A DNA stretch of 40,372 nt from positions 1 through 40,372 of the forward strand of contig JAPONP010000061.1 in assembly GCA_026713835.1 (NCBI GenBank). Reading direction: 5' to 3'. Positions 4,268 to 40,372 of the stretch are shown here, piece by piece. The first letter of the stretch is position 1; every line of letters starts with the position of its first letter. The DNA comes from Bacteriovoracales bacterium. GTDB taxonomy: Bacteria > Bdellovibrionota > Bacteriovoracia > Bacteriovoracales > Bacteriovoracaceae. A program made the position numbers and the translations under genes. The notes under the pieces are model-generated. The model saw only the letters and a list, made by a program, of their open reading frames with translations, had not been told where the DNA came from and ran no database searches.

Positions 4268-4795
4268 TTATCGGCAGGTTGGATCGTCCGTTAGTCGTCC
4301 CAAATAGATGGGGTCGCCGTCCTCATCGAGTTCATTGAGAAAAACAAAATCGTATTCGCTGACACCTAAAGAACATTCTTTTCCACCCCGGCCGTAAATC
4401 GTGATGTAAGGAGTGGCCAGGTAAAAGACGGTTTTTTGGGAACCCTCAAGTCTTTTAACCGACTGCCAATCAACCCCAAAATCGTATTGGGCCTCATTGG
4501 CATATTCAAAATCATCTAGGGTAAAGTGTTCACAAGCATAATCGGGATACCCATCTTCGTTCCAGTAGGAGGCCTGCTCATGAAGATCCACATCATCGAT
4601 ATTATATTCGATGTGAGAACCCCACCTAGGCCCTCGGCTGTTTTGGATTTTAAACTCTTGAAAAAGGCCTGCCTCTAGCCCCGGGATCGTGACGAATTTT
4701 TGATCGTATTCACCCATGCAAGTTTGATAGTTTTCACCGGAAGCGAAGGTGGTGAGAGCGGTGAGAAGAAGGGAAAAACCAAATAACTTTTTCAC
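4268..4795 (-). CDS. Secreted protein of unknown function, paralogue A
   Basis: 175 aa with signal peptide (MKKLFGFSLLLTALTTFASG); clearly homologous to the upstream neighbour at 4805-5350. Confidence 0.75.
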   Translation of the reverse strand: MKKLFGFSLLLTALTTFASGENYQTCMGEYDQKFVTIPGLEAGLFQEFKIQNSRGPRWGSHIEYNIDDVDLHEQASYWNEDGYPDYACEHFTLDDFEYANEAQYDFGVDWQSVKRLEGSQKTVFYLATPYITIYGRGGKECSLGVSEYDFVFLNELDEDGDPIYLGRLTDDPTCR

Positions 4796-4804
4796 GGAGT
4801 CTCC

Positions 4805-5350
4805 TTAAAGAAGTGGTTTGAGACGGTTTTTTCGACAAGGCCCTTCCGCAAGGCGACCCAGATAGGTGGGTTCGCCGTCCTCATCGAGTTCATTGAGAAA
4901 CACATACCGATCATCGCCTCTAAGAAAAGAACACTCTTTTTCGGAAGTATAGATATTCACATAAAAAGAGGCCAAGTAAAAAACGGTTCTTTGGGAACCC
5001 TCAAGTCTTTTGACCGACTCCCACTCAAACCCGTGATCTTCCTGGATGGCATCTCTAAAATCGTCCTCGGTAAAGTGGGGGCAGGCATCGGTGGGGTATC
5101 CGGCCTCACTCCAATAAGAGGCATACTCCCAAAAATCCGTGTCGGGAATGGCGTCTTCGATGATCTCAGTCTTACCCCACCTAGGCCCTCGGCTGTCTTG
5201 GATTTTAAATTCCTGGAAGAGATCAATCTCTAGTCCCGGGATAGTAACGTATTGGCGATCGTATTCATCCATGCAAGTTTGGTAGTTTTCATCGGAAGCG
5301 AGGGTGGTGAGAGCGGTGAGAAGAAGGAAAAAACCGAGACACTTTTTCAT
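4805..5350 (-). CDS. Secreted protein of unknown function, paralogue B
   Basis: 181 aa with signal peptide; shares ENYQTCM-EYD, VTIPGLE, LFQEFKIQ-SRGPRWG, VKRLEGSQ-TVFYLA, FLNELDEDG-P-YLGRL with paralogue A. Confidence 0.75.
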   Translation of the reverse strand: MKKCLGFFLLLTALTTLASDENYQTCMDEYDRQYVTIPGLEIDLFQEFKIQDSRGPRWGKTEIIEDAIPDTDFWEYASYWSEAGYPTDACPHFTEDDFRDAIQEDHGFEWESVKRLEGSQRTVFYLASFYVNIYTSEKECSFLRGDDRYVFLNELDEDGEPTYLGRLAEGPCRKNRLKPLL

Positions 5351-5618: not shown

Positions 5619-6581
5619 TCAAGTTCGAGATTTCGACGATTTTTGAGAAAGGGCCTGGACTTGCTCCGGCGTTAAATCGGTGTATTTACAAATAACGTGA
5701 ATTTCGGCTCCTTCTCCAAGCATTTTGAGAGCTACCTTTTTCATACCTTGCTCTATACCTTGCTCCATACCTTGTTTTACACCCCTCCTGAGCCCTTTCT
5801 CCTCCGCCCTATCCAACGAAAATTTAAATTCGGCCATAAACCTATCCTCCCGTTTTAAAACCTGACTTTCTATCTCCTGCAAGACTTTCCAGGTGAAGGT
5901 CTTGCTTTGGTGTTGAATGTACTCCATGGCCAATCCCATAATCGGCGGCCTCTCTTTTTTGGGGACATCCAAAGCCATTTTGAGGAGTTCTCTCACCTCA
6001 AGCTCCGTCAGGGACATTATGCTTTGCATTATAAAGAGGATTGGCCTTGCGGTCAAGTCCTTCTTTCCTCGGAGCTTCAATCGTTGAATATCCAACAATC
6101 TACATTTGAAATCAAGAATGTTTTTCCCAAATGCTCTTTTGAGCGCAGGGGTCAGTCCCTCCAGGGTCTCTTGAAGGGAAAGGGGCCCTGAATAGGGGGC
6201 CTTGTTTACCCCCTGATAGACCAAAATGGGGATGATGGGTTGTCTTTTCTTGGCACAAATCACCGCTTGATAACCGAGCATCTGAAAGAGAAGGCTCCTA
6301 TCCGCTCCACTTTTATGTTCGATTAAAAAAAGAATCTTGGCCGTCTTTTTCGAGTTTTTGAGTTGAACGGAAAAGACCAAGTCCGTCCTCTTCTCCTTCC
6401 ACTCCTCATCGACATAGGTGGTGATTTCCGGGCGGAGGCTCTTCCAATTGAAAAGCCCAAACTCTTTTGGAGTAAAGACAAGGCGAAAGATATCCGTGGC
6501 ATATTTTTTTTCGCCAAAGACTCTCTTGAAAAAGATATCGTGAATGGGTTTTTTCCGTGCAACCATGCTCAATGCTTCCAC
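5619..6581 (-). CDS. Rpn family recombination-promoting nuclease / putative transposase (PD-(D/E)XK), paralogue 1
   Basis: 320 aa; PIHDIFFKRVFGEKKYATDIFRLVF...KRTDLVFSVQLKN...ILFLIEHKSGADRSLLFQML, with repeat-rich tail RGVKQGMEQGIEQGMKKVALKMLGEGAEI. Confidence 0.9.
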   Translation of the reverse strand: MEALSMVARKKPIHDIFFKRVFGEKKYATDIFRLVFTPKEFGLFNWKSLRPEITTYVDEEWKEKRTDLVFSVQLKNSKKTAKILFLIEHKSGADRSLLFQMLGYQAVICAKKRQPIIPILVYQGVNKAPYSGPLSLQETLEGLTPALKRAFGKNILDFKCRLLDIQRLKLRGKKDLTARPILFIMQSIMSLTELEVRELLKMALDVPKKERPPIMGLAMEYIQHQSKTFTWKVLQEIESQVLKREDRFMAEFKFSLDRAEEKGLRRGVKQGMEQGIEQGMKKVALKMLGEGAEIHVICKYTDLTPEQVQALSQKSSKSRT

Positions 6582-21735: not shown

Positions 21736-22675
21736 ATACCTGAAAGATTTTCCGGGCGCTATAGACTTTGACACCTTAGAGCGGATCAAAAGCGAGCGGG
21801 AGAAGGGATGGGACTTGGGTCTAGGGCCAAAGTATCGAAACATTCTTTCAAAACTGCCTCGGGTTTTGGGGAATGTGAAGGTGGCGGGCGGGGCCGTGAG
21901 TGTGGAAGGAGATATCGGCGCTCAAGAGAGGGAGGTTATCGAGAGGGGGGCCCTTGAACTTAAAAATTGGAGGAAGGGCCCTTTTGAACTCTTTGGGCTT
22001 TTGATCGATAGCGAGTGGCGAAGTGATCTCAAGTGGAATCGGTTAAAGAGTAAACTCGGGGACCTCAGTGGGCAAACGGTTTTGGATATCGGATGCAATA
22101 ACGGCCACTTCATGTATCAAATGAAAGAGGCCGGGTCCCGGAATGTTTTGGGAATCGACCCCACCATTCATTTTTGCGCCCAATTTCGGTTTGTCCAACA
22201 CTTTGCTCAAGTTAAAGGCCTCCATTTTGAACTCTTTGGCGTTGATGAGTTGACTTCGTTTCGCCACGTTTTCGATACGGTTTTTTCCCTTGGGATTCTC
22301 TACCATCACCCCCATCCTCTCAAACAATTAAAAGATATCCACGAGGCCTTAAGGCCCGGGGGACGATTGATTTTGGAAACCATTGGCCTTGAAGGAGAGT
22401 CCCCCGTCTCCTTTTGTCCCGTGGATCGGTATGCGGGAATGAAAAAGATATGGTTTATCCCGACCCTTCCCGTTCTCCTCCACTGGATGAAAAAATCTCT
22501 TTTTACGGATATCGAAGTGATCTCCACCGAGTGGGAAGGAGAGAGTGAGCAGCGATCGACCCCATGGTCGGCCCCCGTCTCCTATCGAGATTTTTTAAAT
22601 CCTCGCGACAAAAACAAAACAGTCGAAGGTCATCCCGCTCCTCTTCGGTTTATCGTTCAGGGAAGAAAAAGGTAA
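21725..22675 (+). CDS. cmoB: tRNA U34 carboxymethyltransferase
   Basis: 316 aa; WRSDLKWNRL, VLDIGCNNGHFMYQMKEAGSRNVLGIDPTIHFCAQF, FSLGILYHHPHPLKQL, RSTPWSAPVSYRDFLNP, KTVEGHPAPLR. Confidence 0.95.
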   Translation: MGLEYLKDFPGAIDFDTLERIKSEREKGWDLGLGPKYRNILSKLPRVLGNVKVAGGAVSVEGDIGAQEREVIERGALELKNWRKGPFELFGLLIDSEWRSDLKWNRLKSKLGDLSGQTVLDIGCNNGHFMYQMKEAGSRNVLGIDPTIHFCAQFRFVQHFAQVKGLHFELFGVDELTSFRHVFDTVFSLGILYHHPHPLKQLKDIHEALRPGGRLILETIGLEGESPVSFCPVDRYAGMKKIWFIPTLPVLLHWMKKSLFTDIEVISTEWEGESEQRSTPWSAPVSYRDFLNPRDKNKTVEGHPAPLRFIVQGRKR

Positions 22676-22811
22676 CGGCTCACCCATTTGGCGATCTTGG
22701 CAGTCGTCTGCCTCATCACTCCCTGCGGCGTACTTAAAGTACGCCTCAGTCGTTCTTCGTTGTCTCCTACCAATCTCATCCAAATGGATGGCAGTTACAT
22801 TGCCTTTATTA
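22671..22811 (+). repeat. Structured dispersed repeat, copy 2 (diverged)
   Basis: GGTAACGGCTCACCCATTTGGCGATCTTGGCAGTCGTCTGCC...CTCCTACCAATCTCATCCAAATGGATGGCAGTTACATTGCCTTTATT aligns over its length with the terminal copies; substitutions in stems are compensated. Confidence 0.93.
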
Positions 22812-22907
22812 CAGTTTTTGCTAGAGGTGCAAGCAGTTACAGAAAAAGACCCTAGAGCCTAGCTATTTTTGGGATTATTGATTACCCTCTAGGTAAGAGG
22901 GGGTAGC

Positions 22908-25210: not shown

Positions 25211-26143
25211 TTAGCCCATCTTTTTCGACAATTGCTTCACCTGTTCAGGAGTCAACTTGGTATATTGGCAGATCATCCGAATGTCGGCCCCTTCTTCGAG
25301 CATTTGGAGGGCCACTTCTTCCTTCCCCCTCTCAATCCCCTTCTCGATCCCCTTTTTCACCCCTCTGCTTTCGGCCTCATCTAAGGAAATTTTCAATGCC
25401 GGCATAATGCGATCCTCCCCATCTAAAATTTTTTCTTCGATTTCTTGCAACACCTTCCAGCTAAAGGCTTTGTCATATTGGTGGATATAATCCACGGCCC
25501 GCTCCATAAGGGCCTTCCTTTCCCTCCTCGAAAGTTCCTCTCCCATGCCAAAAAGCTCTTCCACTTTCTTCTTATTCAGGGAAAAGACATTCCGCATTAT
25601 AAAAAGAATCGGTTTTGTGGTCAAGTCCTTTTTCTGGCCTATATTGAACTCTTGGATATTCAACAACCTGGCCGTGAAGTTGAGGATATTTTTCCCAAAG
25701 GCCTTTTTGAGTGCAGGGGTTAGAGTGGCTAAAGATTCTTGAAACACAAGAGGCCCGGGGTAAGGGCCTTTTTTGCGTCCTTGATAAATGAGGATAGGGA
25801 TGACGGGATGGTTTTGACGGGCATAGATGAGGGCCTGATAGGCGAGTATTTGGAAGAGCAATTTGTCGTCTTTTCTACTCTTGTGCTCCAAGAGGAAGAG
25901 GATTTTTGCCGTTTTTTGGGAGTTTTTAAGACGAACCGAAAAGAGCAAATCCGTTCTCTTCTCCTTCCACTCCTCATCTACATAGGTGGTCAATTCGGGG
26001 CGCAGGGTTTTCCAGTTGAAGAGCCCAAATTCTTTTTTTGTAAAAACGAGGCGAAAGATATCTAGGGCGTATTTGGGTTTTTGGTAAGTCTCTTTAAAGA
26101 GTAGATCGTGGAGGGGTCTTTTTGCCATGGGCGATATTCCCAC
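25211..26143 (-). CDS. Rpn family recombination-promoting nuclease / putative transposase, paralogue 2
   Basis: 310 aa; homologous along its length to 5619-6581 (ALDIFRLVFTKKEFGLFNWKTLRPELTTYVDEEWKEKRTDLLFSVRLKNSQKTAKILFLLEHKSRKDDKLLFQ). Confidence 0.9.
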   Translation of the reverse strand: MGISPMAKRPLHDLLFKETYQKPKYALDIFRLVFTKKEFGLFNWKTLRPELTTYVDEEWKEKRTDLLFSVRLKNSQKTAKILFLLEHKSRKDDKLLFQILAYQALIYARQNHPVIPILIYQGRKKGPYPGPLVFQESLATLTPALKKAFGKNILNFTARLLNIQEFNIGQKKDLTTKPILFIMRNVFSLNKKKVEELFGMGEELSRRERKALMERAVDYIHQYDKAFSWKVLQEIEEKILDGEDRIMPALKISLDEAESRGVKKGIEKGIERGKEEVALQMLEEGADIRMICQYTKLTPEQVKQLSKKMG

Positions 26144-38602: not shown

Positions 38603-40234
38603 ATGGAAATTGCTTTTGTCGAACTTGGCTCCTATTCCATTAAATTTCTAAGAGGAATTGTTAAGAGAAAAACGGTTGAATACCTTGATTCCAAAGAAAA
38701 AATTCTTAGAGCGGCCATTCTTAAAACTTTTGATAAAGACAGTACCCCGAGCAATGGACTTGAGCTAATCGAGCCACATCGCTTAGAGACGGTTCAGTTT
38801 AAAGTCATCGAGGAATACCTACAGGAATATGGGTCCGTAGAAAAAATTATTATTAACCTACCGTCTAACTACTCGACACTTCGGCTTGTTAGTTTGCCCG
38901 TTAAGAATAGGAAAAAAATTGAGAGAATGGTTCCTTTCCAGCTTGATGATGAATTGCCCTATCCATTGCCGGAGGCCCATTTGGCGATTTATCCCATTAT
39001 TGTTCAAAGGGGAAGCTATACGATTGCATCATCAACTCATATTGAGAAATTTGATAGATTTTTTGAACACGCCCAACATTTAACTTGTTCTCCTGCAGCT
39101 ATTGTGGCCAATGAATCTATTTATCAAAAATTTGTTCTTGAAAATAACTTAGATGATCCTATTGCTATTGTGGATTTCGGTCATCGAGACTCTGTATGCT
39201 ATCTCTTTTATAATAGTCGTCTTGTCGGAGTAGAGACATCTTTTGTTGGGGGGCGAGTTGTCGATGATGTCATCAGCGAGACTTATAAAATTGATGTTGA
39301 TGAGGCCATAGCATTTAAACATAAAGATGCATTTTTTCTTACGATGGATCAAATGGATAATGTAGATGAAGATCAAAAGAATTTTTCATTGTTGATGAAA
39401 AAGATATTTTCAGTCTTTATTGACAATTTTAAGCGCTGGGATGTGAGTTATCAACTCAAGACTAGGAAAAGTGTGAAAAAAATGTTGATTACGGGTGGAA
39501 TATCAAACATTAAAAATATGCCTCTTTTTCTATCTCAAGAGCTTGGCATCCAGGTTTCACATTTCCCCTATTTGGAAAGAACTGAACTAGATAATTTGGG
39601 ACTTTCTACAGTCGATTTGAGATCTCTCGTGAATTGTTATGGGCTTTCATATCATGTTACGAGCAAGGGAGGGCTTAGTAATTTTCGAAATGGGACTTAT
39701 GCAGCTTCCGGCGAAAGGGAAATGCATTTGGATTCTGTTTCATTTATAGGTGTGAGATTACTTGTGGCCTGTTTGATCCCTCTATTGGTTCTCATTTTTG
39801 AAAATATTTATCTTTCTCGAATTGACAAAAATATGACTAAAAAAATTTCAAAAATTCTAAGAGACCCATCTCTTAAAACGACTCCTGCGAAGAGAAGAAA
39901 AATGATAAGAGACCCTGAAAATCTTTTTAAATTTATAGAGAAAAAAAATAAAAATCTAAAAAAAAGAGTGGAGCTTGTTGAAGAAATATCCGGCGTTAAT
40001 GGGGTCAGTTCATTGGCAGAGCTTAGTCGTATAGTAAAAAATTCTCTCGATGTCGAATTGATTAAATTTGAAAACGGAAATAAAAATGTTTCGGCTGTAT
40101 TTAAAAGTGAAGATCAAAAAATTTTAAAATCTCTTGAGAATGTATTGAGATCGAGAAATTTTGATAATATGAAAGTGATATTAAAAGAAGAAAATAAGGA
40201 ACTGGAACTGACTTATCGTAACGTACAAAGATAG
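38603..40234 (+). CDS. gspL: Type II secretion GspL / PilM-like actin-fold protein
   Basis: 543 aa; N-terminal MEIAFVELGSYSIKFLRG, IAIVDFGHRDSVCYLFYNSRLVGVETSFVGG, KKMLITGGISNIKNMPLFLSQELG; late TM segment and coiled region. Confidence 0.8.
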   Translation: MEIAFVELGSYSIKFLRGIVKRKTVEYLDSKEKILRAAILKTFDKDSTPSNGLELIEPHRLETVQFKVIEEYLQEYGSVEKIIINLPSNYSTLRLVSLPVKNRKKIERMVPFQLDDELPYPLPEAHLAIYPIIVQRGSYTIASSTHIEKFDRFFEHAQHLTCSPAAIVANESIYQKFVLENNLDDPIAIVDFGHRDSVCYLFYNSRLVGVETSFVGGRVVDDVISETYKIDVDEAIAFKHKDAFFLTMDQMDNVDEDQKNFSLLMKKIFSVFIDNFKRWDVSYQLKTRKSVKKMLITGGISNIKNMPLFLSQELGIQVSHFPYLERTELDNLGLSTVDLRSLVNCYGLSYHVTSKGGLSNFRNGTYAASGEREMHLDSVSFIGVRLLVACLIPLLVLIFENIYLSRIDKNMTKKISKILRDPSLKTTPAKRRKMIRDPENLFKFIEKKNKNLKKRVELVEEISGVNGVSSLAELSRIVKNSLDVELIKFENGNKNVSAVFKSEDQKILKSLENVLRSRNFDNMKVILKEENKELELTYRNVQR

Positions 40235-40372
40235 TAACTGCTCACCCCCCGGCAATCTTGGCAGTCGACTGCCTCGTCGCTTTCCTGCGACGTGCAGGAA
40301 GCACGCCTCGGTCGCTCCTCGTTGCCTCCTACCAATCTTATCCGGGTGGAGAACAGTTACCTTGCCTTTATT
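40234..40372 (+). repeat. Structured dispersed repeat, copy 3 (runs off the window end)
   Basis: GTAACTGCTCACCCCCCGG...CCGGGTGGAGAACAGTTACCTTGCCTTTATT; inverted, nearly identical counterpart of copy 1. Confidence 0.95.

Follow-up and report, generated by a model that had tools for sequence, protein, structure and literature searches.

The question raised by this locus is what kind of repeat begins at position 22672 of the window, by which we mean the whole 40,372-nucleotide stretch of Bacteriovoracales DNA analysed here (contig JAPONP010000061.1 of assembly GCA_026713835.1), and why its copies differ from one another in complementary pairs. An earlier note had described a dispersed repeat family, and the three copies in the window bear this out: 1-135 on the reverse strand, 22672-22840 and 40234-40372. 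The limits then given to the middle copy, 22671-22811, were too short, because the palindrome is followed by a 42-nt tail bearing the true right terminal inverted repeat, and the real unit spans 22672-22840. A reading of the tail as copied host sequence fell when the right terminal repeat proved to lie within it. The parts of the element and the other two copies are as follows.

22664-22671, no strand: left target-site duplication AGAAAAAG, with the identical 8-mer on the opposite side at 22841-22848.
22672-22840, forward strand: complete 169-bp MITE copy (copy 2 of the earlier note), recognised by its terminal inverted repeats and 8-bp duplication in the sequence and by the recurrence of the 169-bp unit at many loci.
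22672-22798, forward strand: 127-nt imperfect palindrome with outer stem GTAAC..GTTAC and arms ATTTGG/CCAAAT, from covariation counts and fold.
22672-22685, forward strand: left terminal inverted repeat GTAACGGCTCACCC, whose family form GTAACTGCTCACCC has 166 exact matches in the genome.
22699-22712, forward strand: small conserved hairpin GGCAG-TCGT-CTGCC, from sequence and alignment.
22723-22752, forward strand: central hairpin motif CTGCGGCGTACTTAAAGTACGCCTCAGTCG, the segment common to several phyla, from pattern matches and the core model.
22799-22840, forward strand: 42-nt tail from the inner GTTAC arm to the right element end.
22826-22840, forward strand: right terminal inverted repeat GGTGCAAGCAGTTAC, from the sequence and genome-wide end matches.
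22841-22848, no strand: right target-site duplication AGAAAAAG, a perfect 8-bp match to the left one.
40234-40372, forward strand: copy 3, subfamily B by sequence comparison, truncated by the contig end.
1-135, reverse strand: copy 1, subfamily B, truncated by the contig end and 99% complementary to 40234-40368.

The insertions at 22672 and 40234 both lie at gene 3' ends, the first providing the stop codon of a 316-aa methyltransferase-like ORF (ending at 22675) and the second the final base of the TAG stop codon in a 543-aa ORF (ending at 40234).

The terminal inverted repeats of the 169-bp element (GTAACGGCTC.../...GCAAGCAGTTAC), together with the 8-bp duplications that flank both long and shortened copies, identify it as a MITE, a non-autonomous transposon without a gene; terminal inverted repeats, target-site duplication and a short, multi-copy, non-coding unit are all present, and the unit contains no ORF reaching 90 aa. 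The host assembly is a 2.34-Mb draft in 235 contigs, many ending inside the repeat. It holds at least 124 core copies, as counted with a covariance model whose training set included two host sequences, and 166 exact matches to the terminal motif against none for the reversed control. Copies are present in both orientations, and 15 of the 18 full-length copies with both flanks carry 8-bp duplications (at most one mismatch allowed), the duplicated targets often being A/T tracts and many lying close to gene ends. Shortened copies of 116 and 89 bp, which differ from the full-length form by deletions between the short direct repeats TGCCTC and CAATCTT, are devoid of the central hairpin core. Duplications nevertheless surround six of seven of these (4/4 of 116 bp and 2/3 of 89 bp), so movement in the host genome does not require the core in cis, assuming that these copies moved after the deletion. 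Among 145 genomes searched, the complete unit was found in the host genome only; what other genomes have in common with it is the core alone, a point that the earlier note had missed. The closest core outside the host, in a genome of the same family (G005), sits in an inner palindrome from which the element's terminal repeats are absent, so that either the core or the MITE may have come first.

The mover is most likely an IS66-type transposase acting in trans, because intact IS66 elements of the host family have ends that begin GTAA and perfect 8-bp duplications (actatatc at L408, aaaaggaa at L416 and cgttcatc at L426), and the ends of the 169-bp element likewise start GTAA beside an 8-bp duplication. 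IS66 is present in the host genome as fragments at contig ends, where the assembly breaks at repeats, and this draft, which breaks at these same repeats, yielded no intact transposase bounded by GTAACTGCTC ends. ISL3 was set aside as the transposase, having no match in the host genome or in the Syntrophaceae genome. With IS66-family MITEs the element shares GTAA-type ends, an 8-bp duplication, a length below 200 bp, the lack of a gene and a high copy number; it differs from them in holding a hairpin core common to elements of other duplication lengths, and no cognate IS66 with exactly its ends was found. Elsewhere in the window lie two PF04754 paralogues (YhgA-like putative transposase) on the reverse strand, at 5619-6581 and 25211-26143, whose DNA is 79% identical over 201 nt, and two related ORFs in tandem, also on the reverse strand (4268-4795 and 4805-5350; 175 and 181 aa), which have no Pfam match.

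The central hairpin, CTCC-CTGCGRCGTAC-loop-GTACGCCTCAGTCG, is found across at least eight phyla, within palindromes whose arms are unrelated. While a longer first search pattern, being too long, gave no match in the genome collection, CTGCGRCGTRC-N2-8-GYACGYCKCRGTCG was found in at least 100 of its stretches, for a chance expectation that we estimate at about 0.1 matches, and in 8 of 379 genomes of the host phylum, where the reversed control pattern gave none. The carriers are Nitrospira and further Nitrospirae, Bdellovibrionales, Methylomirabilota together with Rokubacteria, Gemmatimonadota, Acidobacteriota, Actinomycetota, Syntrophaceae and Myxococcota. No core turned up in plasmids, phages or viral contigs. 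Conservation extends beyond the search pattern to CTCC before the core, GCGTT further left and GCCTTG on the right. Counted with the covariance model trained on sequences that include two from the host genome, core copies number 103 in Syntrophaceae UBA6252, 11 in N. defluvii, 13 in N. moscoviensis and 15 in a relative (G252). The core is not specific to the 169-bp transposon, since it also resides in palindromic elements with other terminal inverted repeats and other duplication lengths.

One such class is the UBA6252 unit, of about 168 nt with its tail, which has terminal repeats GACGGCTTCG.../...TTCGTC and 6-bp duplications such as AAATGT, AAGAAT, AAACAT and ACAAAT; in this genome (G382; contigs C1, C36, C45, C50 and C70, loci L259, L260, L263 and L269) elements also form head-to-tail arrays with a spacing of about 168 nt. 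Another is marked by YTAR. Of 48 Nitrospira-type elements, 17 have this sequence at their left edge or adjoining it, 13 of them at a single exact offset, the background being 0.002 per position. Perfect CTAG duplications flank three copies from other lineages (L122, L153 and L162). Of 47 elements in which the right-hand YTAR duplication could be assessed, only 3 have a perfect one, so this 4-bp class is supported by a few perfect cases and a strong left-hand signal. At one Nitrospira gene, searched in 29 genomes and read by eye, some stop codons have no element after them and others have a palindromic element of one of several unlike kinds. Two of these kinds are flanked on each side by CTAG or CTAA, and some copies, again by eye, look like hybrids in which halves from different types meet near the hairpin. 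Another Nitrospira gene has an element in all 26 readable species, with three inner types (by eye). Hot spots at Nitrospira stop codons (L309-L334 and L357-L385) hold unlike palindromic elements, some with TAGCCCGGATTATTCATGA-type ends, which insert there or replace one another, and right-half remnants are seen downstream at these loci.

The paired differences that first drew attention to the family are real, both in the outer arms (ATTTGG/CCAAAT against CCCCGG/CCGGGT) and in the inner hairpin (GTAC against GCAC), and the third hairpin, GGCAG-TCGN-CTGCC, is conserved among the copies as had been claimed. The folded form is likewise upheld, the DNA strand being far more stable than its shuffles (z = -4.55). 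Because the alignments themselves supplied the structures, and shuffling exaggerates significance when sequences are related, weight is put on controls with slid partners, on double changes and on effect size. Among 11 aligned copies (10 from the host and one from a relative), 9 pairs are double-changed in 18 cells, against at most 3-5 cells when the partners are slid by 1-3 columns; independent events in the host genome are fewer than 18 cells would suggest, because the contrast is essentially one of two subfamilies. The covariation persists in larger sets and is much stronger in copies from relatives than in the host genome. The 15 copies of G252 have a nearly constant interior and outer arms that differ widely yet remain complementary, with 23 of 45 pairs double-changed (110 cells, 95% of cells paired; 10-22 cells when slid by 1-3 columns). 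One-sided changes there amount to about 3 cells against about 110 double ones, and G-U intermediates are almost absent. Twelve orthologs of one Nitrospira locus give 13 such pairs in 47 cells; some of the changes there are one-sided (G-U).

Compensatory change by itself had been taken to imply selection on a folded RNA or single-stranded DNA, a step that is unsupported, as fold-back template switching of DNA would give the same pattern. Such switching has been published as a route to compensatory changes (PMC8794818), and template switching as a source both of compensatory hairpin changes and of arm homogenisation (PMC8794818, PMC8604942). Arms that differ yet pair, with G-U steps almost absent, argue for upkeep of the palindrome at the level of DNA, through fold-back templating or a cruciform or single-stranded function, rather than for RNA drift. 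A function as DNA cruciform or single-stranded hairpin predicts pair counts similar to those of fold-back copying, and the two would look the same.

The alternative that survives best, while still unlikely, is a structured RNA with a 3'-end or regulatory role, selected for its fold and spread incidentally by transposons. It draws on the strong covariation in the host, G252 and Nitrospira sets, on the retention of elements at orthologous Nitrospira positions, and on the frequent start of the element at a co-oriented stop codon in relatives: with conservative gene calling, the stop of a co-oriented gene falls within -14 to +9 nt of the left edge in 25 of 62 elements, against 0-1 of 62 when the position is displaced by 100-400 nt, and 5 for the right edge paired with opposite-strand genes. 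TAG accounts for 14 of the 25 abutting stops, compared with 100 of 368 stops in the same loci. The YTAR enrichment at the left edge means that target choice accounts for much of this position, through duplication of a YTAR target that keeps the stop codon; the orientation bias falls outside that explanation. Against the RNA reading stand the near absence of one-sided pair changes in G252, the two orientations of the host copies and the lack of a terminator-like T run at the element's end, where a search for an intrinsic terminator returned only one weak 6-pair site at the tail start. A derivation of the arms from pre-existing intrinsic terminators found no support either, since consistent T runs are absent from the right flanks that were read. 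Rfam offers no match, with nothing at the gathering cut-off and a best match at chance level in a permissive scan (E 3.7).

Far less probable is an element of the REP/REPIN type, mobilised in single-stranded form by a tyrosine (Y1/RAYT) transposase. The central hairpin resembles REPs in size, its conserved mismatches make the strands unequal, and some REPs are reported within longer palindromes (PMC3733652). Yet a Y1 match is absent from the host genome and from six other core-carrying genomes, no core lies within about 1.5 kb on either flank of the Y1 genes that were found, and the alignment, compared with the published description (PMC3733652), has neither a GTAG nor a CGTC tag at the foot of the hairpin. 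Target duplications of 8, 6 and 4 bp also speak against it. The GTAG- or CGTC-tagged palindromes of the REP/REPIN type resemble the 169-bp element as short intergenic imperfect hairpins, sometimes in larger palindromes and in several phyla, and differ from it in sequence and tags, in their shorter unit, and in its target duplications and lack of any Y1 association found (PMC3733652). The BoxC or intrastrand triplex motif is similarly a widespread small palindromic repeat, with a different consensus (PMC4666352). The earlier note, which did not recognise the repeat as a known REP, BIME or ERIC family, had missed that it is a MITE with 8-bp duplications. Insertion of the IS200/IS605 type is not known to make a target duplication. 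ERIC/RU elements, also imperfect palindromes between genes (about 127 bp), are not known to be related in sequence, and the 169-bp element is set apart from them by its 8-bp duplications and cross-phylum core. The last alternative, that the covariation is mere shared ancestry of two subfamilies under no ongoing constraint, fits a host-genome contrast that is essentially subfamily A against B, and is refuted for the wider family by the 23 pairs of G252 (15 copies) and 13 of the Nitrospira locus (12 orthologs), far above their slid-partner controls, leaving it next to no credence.

The explanation that we hold with considerable confidence is a 169-bp MITE with a probable IS66-type mover and a cross-phylum hairpin core, whose arms are kept complementary, most likely by a process acting on DNA. 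An IS66-type transposase, a class suggested by the ends, would move the MITE in trans through its GTAACTGCTC terminal inverted repeats, leaving the 8-bp duplication that is observed. The palindromic left part carries a core that, as its distribution establishes, is not tied to that transposon, and the arms around it stay complementary while their sequence changes by lineage and locus, as the alignments display. Fold-back template switching at the hairpin would most likely rewrite one arm from the other, and the core may thereby gain new arms; the copies at the Nitrospira locus that look like joined left and right halves of different types fit such switching. More tentatively, and with rather less than even confidence, the core may be an independent module: a DNA (or RNA) structure, conserved and either read by a widely conserved protein or serving as a recombination or template-switch site, which short elements of at least three transposition classes (8-bp, 6-bp and CTAG/YTAR) have acquired time and again in at least eight phyla, and which would rebuild complementary arms around itself.

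MITEs and palindromic repeats are already known, and what appears new is a hairpin core across three duplication classes and several phyla, for which no earlier description was found in the searchable literature, a body that leaves out most subscription journals. The sole match to the core motif string there was an unrelated strawberry paper, and papers on palindromic repeats cover other families. MITEs are seen as remnants of one transposon each, a picture that a core shared between classes and phyla does not fit, and such sharing suggests either a function or a mechanism of swapping. As arms within one genome differ widely and still pair, these elements offer a natural test between fold-back copying and selection on structure. 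Proof that an RNA is functional usually comes from compensatory change, and a repeat of this kind could be taken for such an RNA by mistake.
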